NCBI GenBank assembly: GCA_025526935.1
Contig: JAHLKD010000044.1
Span: 310,001 to 374,000 of the forward strand
Length of the DNA stretch: 64,000 nucleotides
Source of the DNA: Cladochytrium replicatum
Taxonomy: Eukaryota; Chytridiomycota; Chytridiomycetes; Cladochytriales; Cladochytriaceae
Direction of reading: 5' to 3'
Shown one piece after another: positions 35,011 to 48,521 of this stretch. A model generated the notes under the pieces. That model was not told where the DNA came from, did no database searches, and saw nothing but the letters and a program-made list of their open reading frames with translations. Within the stretch, counting starts at the first letter, position 1. The number at the start of each line of letters is the position of its first letter. The translations under genes were made by a program, and so were the position numbers.

Positions 35011-35760
35011 CTAACCCAAACTCAGGTGAAGGTCGAATAAAATACAAAAACAACAACTTGGCAACACGAGGAGCAGAGCCTCCAAAGTACGAGGAGCAGA
35101 GACCCTCCAAAGTACGAGACATAAGGTGCAAAAAGATGCAATGAGGCACAAGCTTTGAGTGATGATCAATAGTTGCAGCAAGATCAAACCTGCAAAAGTA
35201 AAATAGTGACCAAGGTACCTAAATGAAACCTTGACAGGGAGGGCAGAGCCATGAAGCTTCAAGGTAGTGGGGAACCGCCGAGATGATATCACAGCACACT
35301 TTGAAGGTGTAAACACAGAATGAGAAACTAAAGCAAAATCTTCACAAATTTTTAATGCAAGTTGTGCTTGCTCAGGGGTGGCAGAAAACAATGCTATGTC
35401 ATCAGCAAAAAAGAACGAATTGAAAACAGGAGTATTATTAGAAAACCTAGCAAGATGAGAAGATTCACATTGAAGGAGCTGCGCTAAAGGATTGATGAAA
35501 ACTGAGTACAAAAACGGAGACCAAAGAGAACCTTGAAAAAGACCTCGTGGAAGCAAAAACAAATCAGAAGCATGATTCTCCACAACAACCTGAGAAGAAG
35601 AATGATCAAACATGCTAATCAAAACAGAGTTCAAACAGTTTGGGGCTCTTGGGAAATTGACAAAGATGTTCCCACAAAAGAGGCCTATGCACAGTATTAT
35701 ACGCTGCTTTAATGTCTAAGAAAATAACACAATAAGGCAGAGCAAGCTACAAGCATAGGA
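35011..35760 (-). mobile_element. Non-LTR (LINE) reverse transcriptase fragment
   Basis: RT block A (FLDIKAAYNTVHRPLLW, near 35,740-35,660) is followed by RGLFQGSLWSPFLYSVFINP and the FADDIALFS catalytic box, then an ICEDFA segment. Both ends of the element are missing and the frame is broken near 35,640. Confidence 0.85.
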
Positions 35761-36136
35761 AGGGGGGTATGCTCAAAGATTTTTCTACAACGTTGGTTAA
35801 AGTGAAGGGGCGGTATTGACTAATATCGCCAAGACAACTCTTAATCTTCCAAACAATGGATCACAACGAACATAGCTCAATGGGATAAATTTCCTAAACG
35901 GAATAAAGGGTTAAAGCTCAAAACTTGCGGTAGTTGGCGTAAGTCATTTTACGCTGCGTTCTTTTTCTTTTTCAAACAAAAGTTTTGTGAAGAAAACCAA
36001 ACATCAACACCCCCTTTTGTATATGATGTAAAGTAAATAATAATCTTGAAGATTCTCTTCACTTTGACCACACCATTTATCAAAGAAGAAGATTTTTAGT
36101 CAAAAGCGAACCACCCAAACCTCAAAATTTTCAAAT

Positions 36137-36310: not shown

Positions 36311-36387
36311 AACAACTTGGTTGGCCGTGTACTGTTTGAAAGTGGACATTAATCATAACGGAACATTCCACAATCTTCCTCCCCGCA

Positions 36388-37461
36388 GGCTTAGATCCAG
36401 GGTCAACCGCCACGAAAATCTCCAAAGGATCTTCGGATGGCCGCCCGGAATAGGTCGCGCGGGCACAGCTGACTGTTGTTTCTCCAAACGCCGATGCGCC
36501 TGCGTCCGCAAGTGCCTCCGGCCCGTGTGAGAGTTTGACCGTCTTGCCCATCTCCACAAACACATTGCGATGCGAAGGGGACGATAATGCTCTGATCGTG
36601 CCTGACAATAGTTCGACGCCGACCTCAACTTGTAACTTTGTATCGGTTCCGACAACAGCTGGTTTCGACTCCAAAGCCGTGGGTCGCTGGGTCGGAAAAG
36701 CAATCCGGATATTCTCTGATGACGATGAAACTTCCATGATGAAGGTAATATGCATCGTAGCCGCTGCCCCACCGGGAAGGTTTCCAATTGATACCCGAAA
36801 CTGTCCGGGGTTTACATCTATTCCAATAAGCGCAGACACGGTTCCTTTGTCTCGTGCATTGGTATACTCCTGCTGAGCTTCCGCCTTCTCTTTTACAACA
36901 CCTGTTTCAATCAGTACATATTGTGAGAAAATAATGACCGAATGTTGAGTTGTTTGTTACCTTCAATACTCTCCCAGCGACCTCTGCATAAAATCCACAA
37001 ACTACGGCGTTTGCGTTCTCTGGAACGGTGAACAGATAAACACATTCGGTGAGCGTTCCTTCAGTTTTGTTGTAAAAGGTGTGTTGAATATTGACGATGG
37101 ACACCAAGTTGACAACTCTCGCTTTGCAATAGATGTCAGAAACGTGTATGAAGGCCGGTTCTTCGGGGAAAAAATGAATGCGAACAGTTGATTCCTTCAA
37201 ATTGCTTACGCAATGAAAAGTCGATTCCTCTTTGTTCCAGATTCCGGATGAGTTCGCTCTCTCCCTGTCGAGGGACACTCGCATCCGAGGCTGTCTTAGT
37301 TACGGGAGGGTGCTCTTTTGAGCTACTCTACCAGGCTTCTCGAAGAAGTACCGCCAAAAACTGTCAAAAAACAGACAGCGTAAGGAGAATTTGTATGAAG
37401 ATGAGGAAAAACTCACATATTGTTCCAATCCTGGTGCAATCGAGACTTTGGCCACCATGTC
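36388..37461 (-). pseudogene. Truncated recent copy of the TIR-VIT-vWA-Hsp70 gene
   Basis: Nearly identical DNA to the intact gene. It holds the first exon (MVAKVSIAPGLEQY) with its upstream region, the linker, the VIT exons and the following beta region up to VDPGSKPAG. About 500 bp (36,390-36,905 against 43,315-43,835) differ at only a few bases. The TIR exons are gone: right after the first intron's acceptor the sequence jumps to the linker (GGCGGTACTTCTTC), and a stop follows. The right break is at SKPAG, before the vWA domain, so vWA and Hsp70 are missing. Very recent duplication and no intact frame. Confidence 0.85.
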
Positions 37462-37913
37462 TGCAGAGGTAAGCCGTCTGATGCTTGGCGGTGTAGAGCA
37501 CACTGGGATTCCCAGGGTCCAAGATCTACCGCGTGTCGCACACTGCTGTCGAGGAGGAGGTAGGAGAACCAAGAATCCAAGCAACGGTTCCCTGTCGATG
37601 TTTGTAGATTTTAGCAAGTGAAAGCGAATAGGGCGAGAAGGTGCTAAAAAATTACCTATGATTTTTTGATAGCATCCATGATGCATGAGTATTGACACTG
37701 TACTGTCATTCTCTAAGCACTCCAAACTGGACTGGTCATCATCAAAACTACCGATTTCCATTTACTAGTTTCCATGGTTGCTAATACACACGCAGTCGTC
37801 ACTTCCTTCTGCTACCCAACACGGTCTCATAGAAAAGGGATATTAGGAGGGATCGGATTGCCGGGCGGAAATCGACTGGTCATAGCGTTCCCGAACTTCG
37901 ATCAATTCTCACA

Positions 37914-39219: not shown

Positions 39220-42200
39220 CTACCATTCTCCTTGCACAATCAGTGGGGTCTTGCACTCTAATTCCTTCATACGCGCATAGGGTACCCCAAATCGCAAGTT
39301 TGGCCTTGCGCAAACCCACAATTCGATCTTTCCATACTAGAAACAAAGTTCTTGTTAGCATCACAAATTAACAAACGTCTTTGATTGAAACCCACCTCGA
39401 TGGTAACGCTAAAGTCCTCCCGATTCCACTCGGGAGCGTACATCCACATTCGGGTATCAAGCGTGAACTTTCCGACAATATGGCATCCTGGGTCCGTCAC
39501 GTCGTTCGGGACGGTCTCAGAGACTGTTCCATATACCATGACTTCTGCTACCATGTCCTTTGTAAGGATGAACTTGTCCCTTGTGAACGACGCGCCGACT
39601 TCCACCGTCTGGTTCCGTTGCACAAACACTGTACAATGCGTTAATAAAGTTGGGAGAACATAGTAGCTCACTAATTTTACCACAGAACTTCTTGTACACG
39701 ATCCAGCTCGAGGGTGGGTCTGATGGGTTGACAACGTCCGCTTTCGAGTCCAAAAGCAGATCGTATTGCCGTTCAATCTTAATTCCCAACGTGTGCCGTG
39801 CCTTCCGACTCCGTACCATGTTCGCATCGAATCCATACCACGCTGCACCCTCCAGTACCGCACTCTCCGACTGCTCAATCGTCGGTACGTTCATCACCCT
39901 TCCAACGACTCGACTGTCCGTCAACATACGTCTTCGGAGGTACCCGCTAGAACAGAACCCACCCACAAGGAAAAGGTGATCGATCGGCATTCCAACAGCA
40001 TTTGTCTCCGACCCCTCCGTTGCAGCACCTGGAGCAGTAGCTCCAGCCGCATCTAGTTGCGTTACCACCATCTCAACAATTCTGTTCACAGCCGGATCGA
40101 AAAATGTTTTCATGTCCGAGAGCGTTATCCGTACTTCCGTGCCGTTGTTTGGGAGCTTGGCAATATATTCTGGGTCATCCCGACGAATGGCATGGCATAG
40201 AGATGTGGGAAGTACGATCGGTTTGTATCCACCAGCAGATTCGTCCGTCCACGTCGACTCTTCTTCGTTGAATTCTCGCTTCATGGTATCCCATTTTGCG
40301 AGAACGTCCTGGTACGCTTGGCGGAGATCCGAGTCCTGGCGGAGTCGCTCGTAGGAGGCGGGGCCGATTTGAGTTTCGAAGAAAGACCAGAAGAGCTGGT
40401 CGACGAGTGATGCACCGAAGAAGTCACCAGCGGCTTGCGTCAACTCTGTAACCTCAAGCTCACGACCGAACGTGCACTGAAAAAGGTCAACCGTTCCACC
40501 TGAACATCGAACCAGAAGTTAACGTCATCAGGCAGGCCAAAAAATGGCAACAATACCTCCAGCATCGACGACAAGTGCTCTAGAGCCTGGCGTAATTACA
40601 TTCATCATCTTCATTGCGAATGTTAAGACGGCTGCGACCGGCTCGTGGCAGAATACGAGGTTTGGCGATTCGGCCTTTTCTATGAGACCGGCGTGCTGGG
40701 CTGCCTTTCGCATTACTTCCATTCCTCCAGGCGTCCAATTTACAGGCACTACAAAATTTGTCAATGTAAGTTACAGGACCTACCCAGAATTTCACAACCA
40801 GCTCTCTCTCACCGGTGAAACAGAGCAATGCTTCCTGCTGAAGCTTCTGTAAGTCTATCTTTTGCCCGCCTCCACCGCTCGTCTTTGTAATGTTCTCAAC
40901 CACATGCACGATAACCTCGCTCATACTCCGCAGATAATCTCCGATCACCTGTGTTGGAGTCAACCCTTTCGGCAAGCGGATATTGTTGAAAATCATTGCT
41001 TCTGCGGAAACCTGGCCTGCCTTATCACTGCCATCGATGCCCATATTCCCAATCTGCTCGGCTAACTGTTCTGGGTTGGTGGGAGAGCCAGGAGCTTGTT
41101 CTTTGCTCGAGGACACGTCGTGGTCGTCACGGAGGAGAAGCTTAACGCGCTCGATGCGACGAATGTTTGGTCTCGGAGTGACAGCGTCGACCGTCCAGCC
41201 CCTTTGGAATTGGGAAGCTTCAGCAATAAATTCATTATCGGATATAAGGTGAACTACCAGTGACGAAGCTCGGCTCCGTCTTGGGTTTTGCTGTATGCGA
41301 GGAGTGTTGGCGTTTTCGGAGAAGCAAAATGGGGCGGTTGATCTCCCCTGAAATGGTGGACGATATTAGAAACAGAAATAGAAGAACAGACTTTTCGTGC
41401 TTAATCTCACCAGTTCGTCCAGACAGCAGGCTTTGTGGGATTCGAACCGTCTTTAGGGACCGCGAGAACAGAAAATCCGGAGAAGGTTCTGCGGTGTAAG
41501 CGGATGAGTCTCTACAGCCAGAAAGAAACGCCAAACCCCCGAAAACATACGTTCCAAAATCAATCCCGACCACGTATTTGATGTTGCTTAACCCCTCCGC
41601 CTGATTTTCCGGCTCTTCCATACTTAAACCCCACCAGCCGGCAATTCCTTGCTGCGGTTGTTGTTGAGGGACCTGCATTTGAGCCTGCGTCCAAGGAAAG
41701 GCACACATAGGTACAGGACGCTGAAGTTGTTGCTGATGTTGAAAAGAAGCCCATTGCTTAGCGTACTGCTGTTGTTGCAGATATTGCTGGTAAAGCCGCT
41801 GCTGTCTCAGAGCCTCGTTGTACTGTGCCTGGGCAAAGACCTGTTGGTCGTAATATGTCGCGTTTGGGTACTGCTGACCGTATTGCGGTTGACCAGCAGC
41901 AGGGGAAGGCTGGCCGTGGTAGAACTTGCCGTTTGGTTGGCCCTGCTGTTGCTGCACATTTTGCTGGAGGTTGTTGAGACTGTCCTCGCCGCTAAGCTTG
42001 TTAAAAAATTTGCTGAATCCCCCCTGGTAGTATTTGCCGTTGGGCTGACCGTGCTGTTGCTGCACATTTTGCTCGAGGGTGTTGAGACTGTCCTCACAGG
42101 TAATATTGTGGACATAATATGCCGCGTACTGCTGACCACATTCCGGCTCATTGATGACACATTGATTGTGAGCCTCATGGCGTTCTTTTTCAGCGTTAAG

Positions 42201-45114
42201 TTTGATTGCATTGAGTTCGACATTGCAGTCAATGTGCGTGACTGAATCGTCAGTCCCATCCCATATCGCGACAAACGATGTTTGAGAGCTAGCAAGCTGG
42301 TAGGCAATTCCGAGCCGGGCGATTTCCTGGGCATACACGGTGTCATGACGACCAGCGTCTTTTCGTAGCGACTCCAATTCGCGAATCCTTTTTTGTGCAG
42401 CAATAGTGTGTGCGAAAGTGTCCGAGAGAGGTTTTAGTGGTATGAGAACCTTAGCCTCCGTTCCCAATGTCAGCACCGCGGATGTTGCTGCACACCCCCC
42501 CATTGTTGATTTCTCTTGCATTGAAGATAACGCAAGACATCCCAAGCGGGAGGTCGGCATCATTCCGATCGTATGTTGCGAAGCAAAAGGCCAGATCACC
42601 TGCACGCGAGTCCACGGTACAGATACGACGCTTGCGAGCGTGTCCCAGGCGCGGTCAGTCTCAAAATCGGAGTTTTTCACAAAATCGCACACCCCATTGC
42701 CCACTTGGGCCAACAGTTCGAGTGCTGGCCGTGAAACGTCATCACCAACACCAAGCGTACAGACCGTGAAATGTTGATTCGTTGCTCCTGCGACCAGCCT
42801 CGGAATAGTTGCGGCAACATTGGCAAGATTCGAAAACTAATAAATTTACGACGTTGTCAAGCTCATAATAGATGTGAGTAAACAAAAGAAGATACCTTTC
42901 CATCTGACAACACCAAAATGACAGTCTGCATGTCTTTAACGTAGCTAAATCGTGATTCCAACACGGCATGCATTGCAGGGAGAAGCTCTCTTTTGTCACC
43001 GGATCCACATCGCTGCAAGACTGCATCGATATCGTCCAAATACTTTTTAGCACTCGCGAATGGAGACTGGATACTCTTCAAGGAAGAACGATCGACTTTC
43101 TCTCCAAAGAAAAGAACGAGTCCCGCATAAGCACTTTGTAATGCACGGAGAGCGAGTTGCACGGCCATTTGAAGCGGCTCGCCACGCATGAATAATCCGC
43201 AATCAATAATGACCAGCACTTCAGTCCGATAAAGGTCGGGAGGAGGTGGATCCAGAGTCAAAGCAAGCATTCCTACTGACGTTCCACGGGTCTCGTCAAG
43301 CTCAATGACCCCCGCAGGCTTAGATCCAGGGTCTACCGCCACGAAAATCTCCAAAGGATCTTCGGATGGCCGCCCGGAATAGGTCGCGCGGGCACAGCTG
43401 ACTGTTGTTTCTCCAAACGCCGATGCGCCTGCGTCCGCAAGTGCCTCCGGCCCGTGTGAGAGTTTGACCGTCTTGCCCATCTCCACAAACACATTGCGAT
43501 GCGAAGGGGACGATAATGCTCTGATCGTGCCTGACAATAGTTCGACGCCGACCTCAACTTGTAACTTTGTATCGGTTCCGACAACAGCTGGTTTCGACTC
43601 CAAAGCCGTGGGTCGCTGGGTCGGAAAAGCAATCCGGATATTCTCTGATGACGATGAAACTTCCATGATAAAGGTAATATGCATCGTAGCCGCTGCCCCA
43701 CCGGGAAGGTTTCCAATTGATACCCGAAACTGTCCGGGGTTTACATCTATTCCAATAAGCGCAGACACGGTTCCTTTGTCTCGTGCATTGGTATACTCCT
43801 GCTGAGCTTCCGCCTTCTCCTTTACGACACCCTGTTTAATCAAGTAAATATTGTGAGAAAATAATGACCGAATGTTGAGTTGTTTGTTACCTTCAATACT
43901 CTCCCAGCGACCTCTGCATAAAATCCACAAACTGAGGCGTTTGCGTTCTCTGGAACGGTGAACAGATAAACACATTCGGTGAGCGTCTCTTCAGTTTTGT
44001 TGCAAAAGGTGTGTTGAAGATTGACGATGGACACCAAGTTGACAACTCTCGCTTTGCAAGAGATGTCAGAAACGGGTATGAAGGCCGGTTCTTCGGGGAA
44101 AAAATATATAAGTTGCGCAAACAGTTGATACCTTCAAATTGCTTACGCAATGAAAAGTCAATTCCTCTTTGTTCCAGATTCCGGATGAGTTCGCTCTCTC
44201 CCCATCGAGGGACACTCGCATCCGAGGCTGTCTTAGTTAGCGTAGGGTTGCTCTTTTGAGCTGCTCTAGGTACCAGGCTTCGGGAAGAAGTGCCGCCAAA
44301 GTTGACACCTCGCGACTTTGGCTTCGTAGGAGCAAGACTTCTCACATGGGCTTCTTTTGGAACGGCACTACCGATGACGCTTCGTGGTGTTGACTTGGTG
44401 GCGGAAAGATCCCTCTGTTGAGCTACGTTGCTGATTGAGAGAGCAACGCGCGGCGACGGAACAGTTGTGACATCTGCAAGAAAATCAAGATGAAATGTGA
44501 GCTTTCAAGGAGAGAATATGACATACCGCTTAGTATTTTCTCTAGTTCTTTGAGTAATTTGAGGTAACTTGGCCTCCATAATCGGGAGTCGAGCTCAAAA
44601 TCTGGATTATAATGATTAAAGGTGAATCTCCCTTCTGAGCAGACGAGAAACTTACGTAGCAGGCCCGCAATTATCAACTTTTCGCCGTCCGGAATTTGGT
44701 TTGTCAAGCGGATCGGAACGATCGCCTTTAGCATCGAGTGTTACCCAAACACGCTCAGTTGTCAACGTGATATCCCTACCTTTCCAATATCTGAAGCGTA
44801 ATTAAGCTCCTTTTTGCAATTTTTCGACTTTCCGTAGTGGATATCCATGATGGGAATAAAGACCATCGAAGTGTTGATCCCTTCGGCCATGGCATCATTG
44901 ATGTTGCCAGACATTCTGTTCACATCAACCCACACAGCATAGCCATCGTGCCGTAAGTTCTGCTCAAGTCTACGGGCTAATTCCTTTCCGGCGCCAGCCC
45001 AAGAGTAGGAGATGAAAAACTGTCAAAACAAGATAGTAAGGAGAATTTGTATGAAGATGAGGAAAAACTCACATGTTGTTCGAATCCTGGTGCAATCGAG
45101 ACTTTGGCCACCAT
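39220..45114 (-). CDS. TIR - VIT - vWA - HSPA12-like Hsp70 fusion protein
   Basis: A minus-strand gene of about 14 exons and 1,600 residues. Residues 15-130 form a TIR domain: FFISYSWAGAGKELARRL, GYAVWVDVNRMSG, IHYGKSKNCKKELNYA, AIVPIRL. The Glu of CKKEL (about residue 85) sits where NAD-cleaving TIRs have their catalytic Glu. A Ser/Lys linker leads to a VIT domain (about 255-385: CVYLFTVPENANASVCGFYA, then GVVKEKAEAQQEYTNARDKG). The vWA domain (about 520-700) has DCGLFMRG in place of the metal-binding DxSxS. An ITIH/VWA5-like end (LASSQTSFVAIW) and a Gln/Tyr-rich linker follow. The actin-like ATPase comes last: VVGIDFGTTFSGFSV, FTVPVNWTPGGMEVMRKAA, LVVDAGGGTVDLF, DHLFLVGGFCSSGYL, all nucleotide motifs intact. 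One uninterrupted frame spans vWA end to GIDFGT, so the fusion is not an annotation artefact. It is probably a cytosolic sensor or scaffold; the function is unknown. Confidence 0.85.
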
Positions 45115-46638: not shown

Positions 46639-48521
46639 ATGGACGTGTCTGCTCTGGCAAGGTCGTACGTTTCGGCTTCATCCCCGTTGAGAGCATCAAG
46701 CGCTGCTTCTATTACAAGATCGCGCTCCGGCATCAGAAAACTCTCCACTTCTAGCACTCTTAGACAGTCTCCCAACACAAATTCACCAGCATATCCGCCA
46801 CATAACCAGCACAAGCGCCTAGCATTCCTAAAGTCTGGATTCAATTCTTCCGCTTCTCAGAACCCTGTTCGCGCGTCGTTGGCAACAGATAAGAGTTCCG
46901 AGCTAAATCACCTGCCATTTGGAGCACCGGGAAACTCTGGTTCAGGGCTCAGAACAACCATCTAGTACGAAATGATCTTAAATGGCTAATTTAGACACTT
47001 CTGACTCATTCTTTTTCCAGTTTCACAATTGTCGATAGAGTCGGAGCACTTGATGAAGTTCTCGTTGCGCTCAAAGATCTTTCGATCTCACTTAAACGCA
47101 TCGAGTCCCGGCCCTCTCGCTCGAAACATTGCTATGACTTCTTTATCGACTTCGATGCCGCCACAGAGACCGACGTGAGAGCGGTAATGGACGAGCTCAA
47201 AAGTACTGCATCGGTGGTTAACGTTGTGAGCGTTGGCGCGTCAGATGCAGATACATCTGCAGGTACTTCTAGCCTTTTCTTTGAATATCAACTTCGTCTC
47301 ACGAGATCTCCTAGCACTTGTCTCAGTTCCTTGGTTTCCCCGCAAAATTTCTGATCTCGATGCATATGCGACAAAAGATCATGAGTTCGGTGCACAATTG
47401 TCGTCTGATCACCCGGGGTTCACAGACGAGACGTACCGTGCCAGACGCGCAGAGATCACACGTCTCGCAACTCAATACAGACATGGTGAACCGCTACCGA
47501 CCATCAAGTACACAGACCAGGAGATCGCAACTTGGGGAGCGGTATACGAGAAACTGATGGGCTTGCATCAGACGCATGCCTGCGAGGAACTTCAATATGT
47601 GTACCCGGTACGACTTGCTAAAGTACCATGACCAGAACCAAATCTGACCGCATTGGCATGATATAGCTCCTTGTACAAAACTGCGGCTACTCCACTAACT
47701 CGATCCCGCAATTGGCATCAGTGTCTCGATTCTTGAAGGACTGTACAGGCTGGACACTTCGGCCTGTCACCGGACTCCTCACTTCCAGGGATTTCCTCAA
47801 CGCGCTCGCATTTAGGGTGTTCCATTCAACTCAGTACATCCGACACCACTCGCGGCCGTTCTACACGCCTGAACCCGATGTGTGCCATGAGATGCTCGGA
47901 CACGTCCCGTTGTACGCCGATCCCGACTTCGCAGAGTTTAGCCAGGAGATCGGGCTTGCTAGTCTGGGTGCGACAGACGAAGACTGTGCGAAGCTCACCA
48001 GTGTATGCTTGAAGACATTGATTCAGTGCTGAAACTAAGTTCCTTTTGTTTGACCTTTGTTAGATTTACTGGTTTACGGTTGAGTTTGGACTTTGTCGAC
48101 AGAAGGGCGAGATCAAAGCATACGGAGCGGGTCTCCTGTCCAGTTTTGGCGAGCTCGAGTACTGCCTCACCGACAAACCTAAAAAAGTACCATTTGATCC
48201 GCACAAGGCGGCATTGACACCTTACCCGTGAGATCGTTCCTTTCTCAGCCTTTGTTCATCACAAGTTTTAAAACTTTTACTTTTCACAGCATCACTGAGT
48301 ACCAGCCTCAGTACTTTGTGGCTGAGAGCTTCCGGGACATGAAAGACAAGGTGCGCGAGTTTGCGGCGACGCTGAAGCGGCCATTTGCAGTGCGATACAA
48401 TGCGCTGACCCAGAGGATCGAGGTTCTGGACAACAAGGAGGACATGGTGCGATTTGCGACCGGGATCAGGGGAGACTTGAGCAGGTTGATATCAGCTCTA
48501 GATAAACTTGCTGAGCTTTGA
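46639..48521 (+). CDS. PAH: Phenylalanine 4-monooxygenase (aromatic amino acid hydroxylase)
   Basis: Six exons: 46639-46964, 47021-47262, 47315-47607, 47667-48002, 48064-48227 and 48290-48521. All splices are in frame. An N-terminal ACT domain ([17 protein letters not shown], then KRIESRPSR) precedes the catalytic domain starting [12 protein letters not shown]. Iron ligands are the two His of [13 protein letters not shown] and the Glu of [11 protein letters not shown]. The pterin/substrate region ([20 protein letters not shown]) is intact, as is the end ([20 protein letters not shown], then [15 protein letters not shown]). It hydroxylates Phe to Tyr with tetrahydrobiopterin and O2, the first step of Phe breakdown. 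The Ser/Arg-rich first 45 residues look like a mitochondrial targeting sequence, but animal PAH is cytosolic, so location is open. The closest match by eye is animal PAH rather than Tyr or Trp hydroxylase. Confidence 0.93.

Follow-up and report, generated by a model that had tools for sequence, protein, structure and literature searches.

Can a single fungal gene encode a TIR domain, a VIT domain, a vWA domain and an Hsp70-type ATPase in one protein, and if so, how did it arise and what might it do? This question is raised by a locus of the chytrid Cladochytrium replicatum, located at 39220..45114 on the minus strand of a 64,000-nucleotide stretch of contig JAHLKD010000044.1 (assembly GCA_025526935.1, positions 310,001 to 374,000). 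The whole stretch is called the window, and positions refer to it unless another contig is named. We consider the gene, with a probability of about 0.6, to be a real young chimera that unites, in one frame, duplicates of a TIR-VIT-vWA gene (the head) and of an HSPA12-type gene.

Gene model and domains

The corrected model of the whole chimeric gene starts with the ATG at 45114 and ends with a stop codon at 39220; it comprises 15 exons and encodes 1697 amino acids. All 14 introns are of the GT-AG type with lengths of 52-64 bases, and the number of internal stops across the 1697 residues is zero. The donor of intron 5 was set at 44146 (GTAAGC) by paralog comparison, as the same donor is present in the copies of the window and of contigs C98 and C102, which are described below. 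A first donor 15 bases downstream, leading to a model of 1702 amino acids, was dropped, because the aligned site is not GT in C98 and C102. The residue numbers of VIT and vWA were shifted by -5 from the scan of the 1702-residue model to the 1697-residue model. Exon 8 (41551..42836, minus strand, 1286 bases) is open in frame through the joint of vWA, linker and HSP70. An initial annotation, made from the letters of this DNA without database searches, had placed TIR, VIT, vWA and an HSPA12-type domain in one gene, with the vWA-to-Hsp70 link inside an unbroken exon frame and fitting splice sites at the remaining junctions. All of this was borne out, and judged by its sequence the four-domain gene is real. 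No Rfam match was found between 34 and 48 kb of the window.

The TIR domain belongs to the type TIR_2 (PF13676) and covers residues 15-121 (44591..45019, minus strand, exons 2-4), the place between 45.0 and 44.6 kb at which a profile search had been predicted to find it. With the whole protein the Pfam match reached E 1.1e-16 and 61.8 bits against a cut-off of 28, over positions 1-108 of the 122 of the profile; with the N-terminal piece scanned alone E was 3.9e-18. The glutamate of the CxxEL motif, which the annotation had called conserved, is present as well (C82-K-K-E85-L). Its column was identical in seven of seven aligned TIR domains, and Glu85 itself is shared by the copies of the window, C98 and C102. 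The top relatives with solved structure were Cat1 (E 0.0065) and the NAD(+) hydrolase SARM1 (E 0.013), both as weak sequence matches. Cat1 cleaves NAD. E85 aligns with a glutamate of each of them, and the aligned residue of SARM1 is the catalytic one. Since Cat1 and SARM1 are the best solved matches and Glu85 is the same in all seven sequences, an enzymatic or assembling output domain is favoured for the TIR.

It is possible, though somewhat doubtful, that within one and the same chimera the TIR serves purely as a scaffold, the role it has in Toll/MyD88-type signalling, and not as an enzyme. This explanation overlaps with the preferred one. It gains from the weakness of the NADase matches and from the fact that a single catalytic residue could be assessed; the TIR_2 type with its conserved glutamate and the identity of the best solved relatives speak against it.

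In the genome, 22 further places on 20 contigs matched the TIR part alone (E 1e-12 to 8e-4). In a separate TIR profile search five loci were obtained, and the three frames scanned from these were all assigned to TIR_2 by Pfam. The genome seems to be rich in TIR genes.

The VIT domain (PF08487; residues 260-372, 43670..44067, minus strand, exons 6-7) was detected with E 9e-24 and 84.2 bits, the Pfam cut-off being 26.5. For the region of the vWA domain (residues 522-681, 42684..43222, minus strand, exons 7-8) a match to VWA_3 with E 3.2e-5 was obtained, yet its 24.5 bits lie under the curated cut-off of 27. Furthermore, the DxSxS of the metal ion-dependent adhesion site (MIDAS) is degraded to DCGLF in the window and to DCGLS in C98 and C102, while it is kept in 23 of 23 aligned relatives (out of 34 matches). 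By profile, the vWA domain named in the annotation is a candidate, and it was overstated in that the metal motif is missing. Because DxSxS is lost, metal-dependent adhesion by this domain is unlikely. In the protein database the alignments of many relatives extend over roughly two thirds of the N-terminal 855 residues. In the C. replicatum genome, too, the VIT-vWA part is matched at C31, C127 and C25 (226.7-228.1 kb), with no match to TIR; these loci share 24-40% identity with the head and are ordinary VIT-vWA relatives.

The HSPA12-type Hsp70 ATPase domain takes up residues about 1051-1697 (39220..41576, minus strand, exons 8-15). With the single sequence of the C-terminal 651 residues the Pfam HSP70 profile fails (E 0.11, 11.1 bits against 20.6). 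In the protein database 350 relatives of this half were found at E 0.001 or better, and several of the 120 listed bear the name heat shock 70 kDa protein 12A or 12B. A family profile built from 38 of these 120 matches chains of DnaK and other Hsp70 proteins with E down to 2.7e-23. As regards a substrate-binding domain, the matches listed between this profile and Hsp70 chains stop close to where the nucleotide-binding domain ends. The ATPase motifs had been annotated as intact, and indeed 42 of 42 checked invariant or near-invariant HSP70 positions are retained in the window protein. The near-invariant initiator methionine, which is outside this set, is replaced by Gln901 at the joint. Among 171 positions agreeing in a smaller set of close relatives, the window protein differs at five, Met 1 included, and the C25 protein at none. 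The HSPA12 tail is probably still able to bind ATP.

The fusion joint and the partners of related copies

Each half of the gene was searched against its own genome; labels such as C25 denote contigs of the C. replicatum assembly. Stand-alone HSPA12-like genes were found at C25 and C77, identical to the window in most pieces to 80-91% and with no TIR-VIT-vWA match adjacent to them. A more distant HSPA12 gene, with 56% identity in the longest piece, lies at C66. For the head, copies at C98 and C102 were 79-91% identical in their pieces, and the first search gave no HSPA12 match on either of these contigs.

The fusion joint was located at 42021..42224 (minus strand). There, the homology to the head ends and is followed by a short unique stretch, after which the HSPA12 N-terminus appears first as a partial and then as a second copy. 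According to blastn breakpoints, window homology ends at 42201 for C98 and at 42216 for C102; the HSPA12 genes of C25 and C77 are homologous from 42112 onwards for a repeat unit and from 42020 onwards for the main copy. DNA and protein alignments showed that the N-terminal repeat is present twice and in frame, and that the ATG is absent from both units. The genes at C25 and C77 begin with MSGFRNF[FI]NK; the window copy is without that ATG.

Copies whose TIR-VIT-vWA frame contains no stop were regarded as open. Three qualify, those of the window, C98 and C102, and all three carry different 3' partners, each read in the partner's frame. Within the examined locus of C102 (about 111.0-116.3 kb) the frame continues from vWA into a chitin synthase (Chitin_synth_1, E 3.1e-38). 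At a distance of 14 kb the same contig carries a second chitin synthase, to which the fused one is 98.7% identical, with one 9-base gap, over the 1912 aligned bases from the joint to the end of the examined locus. The frame of this second chitin synthase is open further upstream, and a third copy on C54 is 83% identical. Judged from these sequences, the chitin-synthase fusion is very recent.

In C98 (190641-194333) the frame continues into an arginine- and glycine-rich (RGG) tail of the RNA-binding-protein type. Over 121 bases this tail has 91% identity with a stretch on C6, and over 106 bases 89% with one on C47; it shares the reading frame of the RGG repeat of C6. The C6 locus also encodes an RRM piece (E 1.4e-11), which would belong, together with the RGG stretch, to one RRM-RGG gene. 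Downstream of the C98 tail follow a stop, 58 bases left over from an HSPA12 5' end and a stretch that resembles one at C85 (74% alike). By eye, the C85-like stretch reads as synaptobrevin-like.

By these comparisons the HSPA12 half is a recent addition, and one genome contains three fused head copies, the window gene among them, each with a different fusion. The most plausible reading places the window gene in a group of recent fusions made with the TIR-VIT-vWA head. As the sister copies of the head continue in frame into quite different proteins, gene fusion may be a way in which this fungus builds new TIR proteins.

The remaining three copies of the head that were found are not open. Those on C7 and C9 are decayed, with stops and gaps. 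The third is a partial tandem copy of the 5' end of the gene in the window (36381..37861, minus strand), consisting of flank, exon 1 and a part of VIT and cut off at 36381. A deletion between intron 1 and exon 5 has removed its TIR exons, and the part corresponding to residues 322-497 is 99% identical to the main gene. Next to this truncated copy, at about 35400-35800 on the minus strand, a fragment resembling the reverse transcriptase of a long interspersed nuclear element (LINE) was noted by eye. On the other side of the gene, the DNA at 46.5-47.0 kb and a stretch lying some 4 kb upstream of the decayed C9 copy are 77% alike, and an open frame at about 46995-47354 on the plus strand resembles, by eye, the regulatory region of an aromatic amino acid hydroxylase.

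Selection on the two halves and competing explanations

The ratio of nonsynonymous to synonymous substitution rates (dN/dS) was determined by the method of Nei and Gojobori on three-sequence trees. For the TIR domain values of 0.21 (window), 0.23 (C98) and 0.22 (C102) were obtained. The linker between TIR and VIT is loose, with 0.47, 1.55 and 0.81, respectively, and the whole head on the window branch has 0.42. Indels in the head exons were all multiples of three, both in comparison with C98 (3/3) and with C102 (3/3). In the HSP70 part no indel beside 114 substitutions was found in 1918 exon bases between the window and C25, while the introns showed seven indels and 38 substitutions in 405 bases; for C77 the exon and intron indels were 0 and 11. 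The nonsynonymous share of the HSP70 half (46/73) is under the neutral expectation of 0.766 (p 0.006). With exon indels at zero against seven in the introns (C25), a raised dN/dS and a nonsynonymous share below neutral, the HSP70 frame is, as far as these counts go, guarded while its constraint is loosened.

Several points weigh against the young chimera. The HSP70 half has a dN/dS of 0.43 in the window against 0.06 in C25 and 0.02 in C77, and nonsynonymous and synonymous changes, polarised with C77, amount to 46:27 in the window against 6:18 in C25 (Fisher p 0.0018), which indicates relaxed constraint. A part of the retention of the HSP70 frame may be older than the fusion, and the test cannot separate the two periods. 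The constraint on VIT is uneven, with dN/dS values of 0.57 (window), 3.52 (C98, where dS is tiny) and 0.03 (C102), and for the chitin-synthase fusion too little time has passed to test selection. TIR activity is not readable from one glutamate, and Cat1 and SARM1 are weakly similar to this TIR (E about 0.01). Finally, the evidence comes from one genome, and the gene models are without support from deposited annotation, there being no deposited protein model or transcript. In the protein database no TIR-VIT-vWA protein of C. replicatum was found in the searched length range of about 470-2970 amino acids, though other proteins of this species are present.

A rival explanation holds that the gene is a by-product of ectopic recombination, by which scattered copies of the modules landed in frame by chance and left a chimera that is unexpressed or decaying. 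The decayed copies on C7 and C9, the truncated tandem copy within the window and the patchwork at C98, made of pieces of four genes, would be expected from such a process, and the dN/dS of the HSP70 half and the missing deposited model agree with it. Nevertheless, we regard this explanation as unlikely, albeit of some weight: the joint is open and in the partner's frame in all three open copies, the checked HSP70 positions are complete, the TIR is constrained, and both the absence of exon indels and the nonsynonymous share of the HSP70 half disagree with decay. Very unlikely is the existence of two genes in practice, with an HSPA12 half made from its own transcript starting in exon 8 and the open joint as incidental read-through. 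Methionine codons occur in the linker ahead of the ATP site, and other copies of both halves live separately; however, the ancestral HSPA12 ATG is lost, no stop separates the halves and the N-terminal repeat at the joint is in frame. An assembly error joining two loci, conceivable for two multi-copy halves, is hardly credible, as each half is distinct from the other copies detected in the assembly and the joint has its own diverged duplication.

Comparison with known systems and possible role

The domain combination was not found elsewhere in the searches made. TIR and VIT were not shown in one protein among 34 and 3 significant database matches (about 8000 candidates of bounded length scored per search). 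Four TIR-bearing matches were scanned again: two contained TIR_2 only and two TIR with WD40. In the latter two, VIT was not one of the 25 families listed (of 49 and 57, respectively). An old conserved architecture of the four domains was therefore rejected, the halves being apart in the same genome. No paper on TIR together with VIT turned up in the open-access literature searched, and none described such a fusion, as judged by titles and the beginnings of abstracts. The statement of the annotation that no described protein with all four domains is known thus holds for the searches made in this database and literature.

TIR is reported in nucleotide-binding leucine-rich repeat proteins (NLRs) of plants, bacteria and Chytridiomycota (PMC9815663), while an earlier survey, of 2014, detected no NLRs in the chytrids that it covered (PMC4986451). 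TIR_2 appears in a domain table of PMC4102429, and the term 'TIR' was absent from the searchable part of PMC11291939. The 1702-residue model gave no Pfam match at E up to 1 to NB-ARC or NACHT, the criterion for an NLR.

With TIR effectors such as SARM1, the CRISPR-associated Cat1 and TIR-NLRs, the chytrid protein shares the TIR_2 type, the conserved glutamate and the joining of TIR to other input domains. The usual partners in these families are ARM/SAM, CARF and NB-ARC/LRR, none of which was seen in the Pfam scan of the chytrid protein; its input side is VIT-vWA and Hsp70 instead, and its activity is putative. VIT-vWA proteins include ITIH, PARP4 and VWA5, and the relatives matched in the protein database comprised bacterial proteins annotated as Ca-activated chloride channel family and a PARP4 from a fish. 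The order of VIT and vWA is the same, whereas the N-terminal TIR, the lost metal motif of vWA and a C-terminal partner varying between copies are peculiar to the chytrid protein in this comparison. HSPA12A and B are described as highly diverged Hsp70s in PMC2266713. The chytrid half resembles this family in its nucleotide-binding domain, with all checked positions kept, and its closest relatives among the matches listed are from Cladochytrium and Nowakowskiella; unlike them it is without its own start codon, stands behind TIR-VIT-vWA and evolves faster.

The domains, the intact frame, the joint, the stand-alone HSPA12 paralogs and the different in-frame partners of the other two open copies are read from the sequence. 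For the young chimera the following course and working are proposed. The fusion would have removed the start codon of the HSPA12 gene and duplicated a small part of its N-terminal repeat, and the chimera would yield a single predicted protein of 1697 amino acids. In this protein the TIR may act as output domain by NAD cleavage or higher-order assembly, and VIT together with a vWA without metal site may form a protein-binding platform. The 3' partner, here the HSPA12 domain with intact ATP-site residues, could supply sensing, localisation or clustering. The whole module would be a TIR output head, the input half of which is exchanged through gene fusion, and the TIR would fire once the tail clusters or engages something. 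The annotation had suggested, as plausible, a stress or non-self switch in which a chaperone-type ATPase would control the TIR as NADase or assembly domain. In view of the three different fusions and the recent addition of the HSPA12 half, a finely tuned TIR-under-Hsp70 switch is less likely than a young chimera with a partner domain still being shaped.

A more speculative and quite unlikely reading assigns a defence role to the whole set. TIR-VIT-vWA would be an immune-type output module repeatedly fused to the fungus' own housekeeping pieces (HSPA12 ATPase, chitin synthase, RNA-binding protein), which would serve as baits for attackers of those proteins. The kept frame and ATP site of the HSPA12 half together with its loosened constraint would fit a bait released from its old task. 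Plant NLRs with integrated decoys are immune-type modules carrying fragments of unrelated host proteins, and the chytrid set would be their NLR-free fungal counterpart. The comparison lies in an immune-type module with host-protein fragments differing between copies; the chytrid protein is unlike them in its missing NB-ARC match, and both its expression and any pathogen target are putative.

For the young chimera as for its sister copies, one genome offers a natural series, in which the same head carries three different in-frame tails and relatives of these tails also occur unfused. This series permits a direct test whether the tail decides when the TIR acts, and it also bears on how early-diverging fungi assemble TIR proteins.

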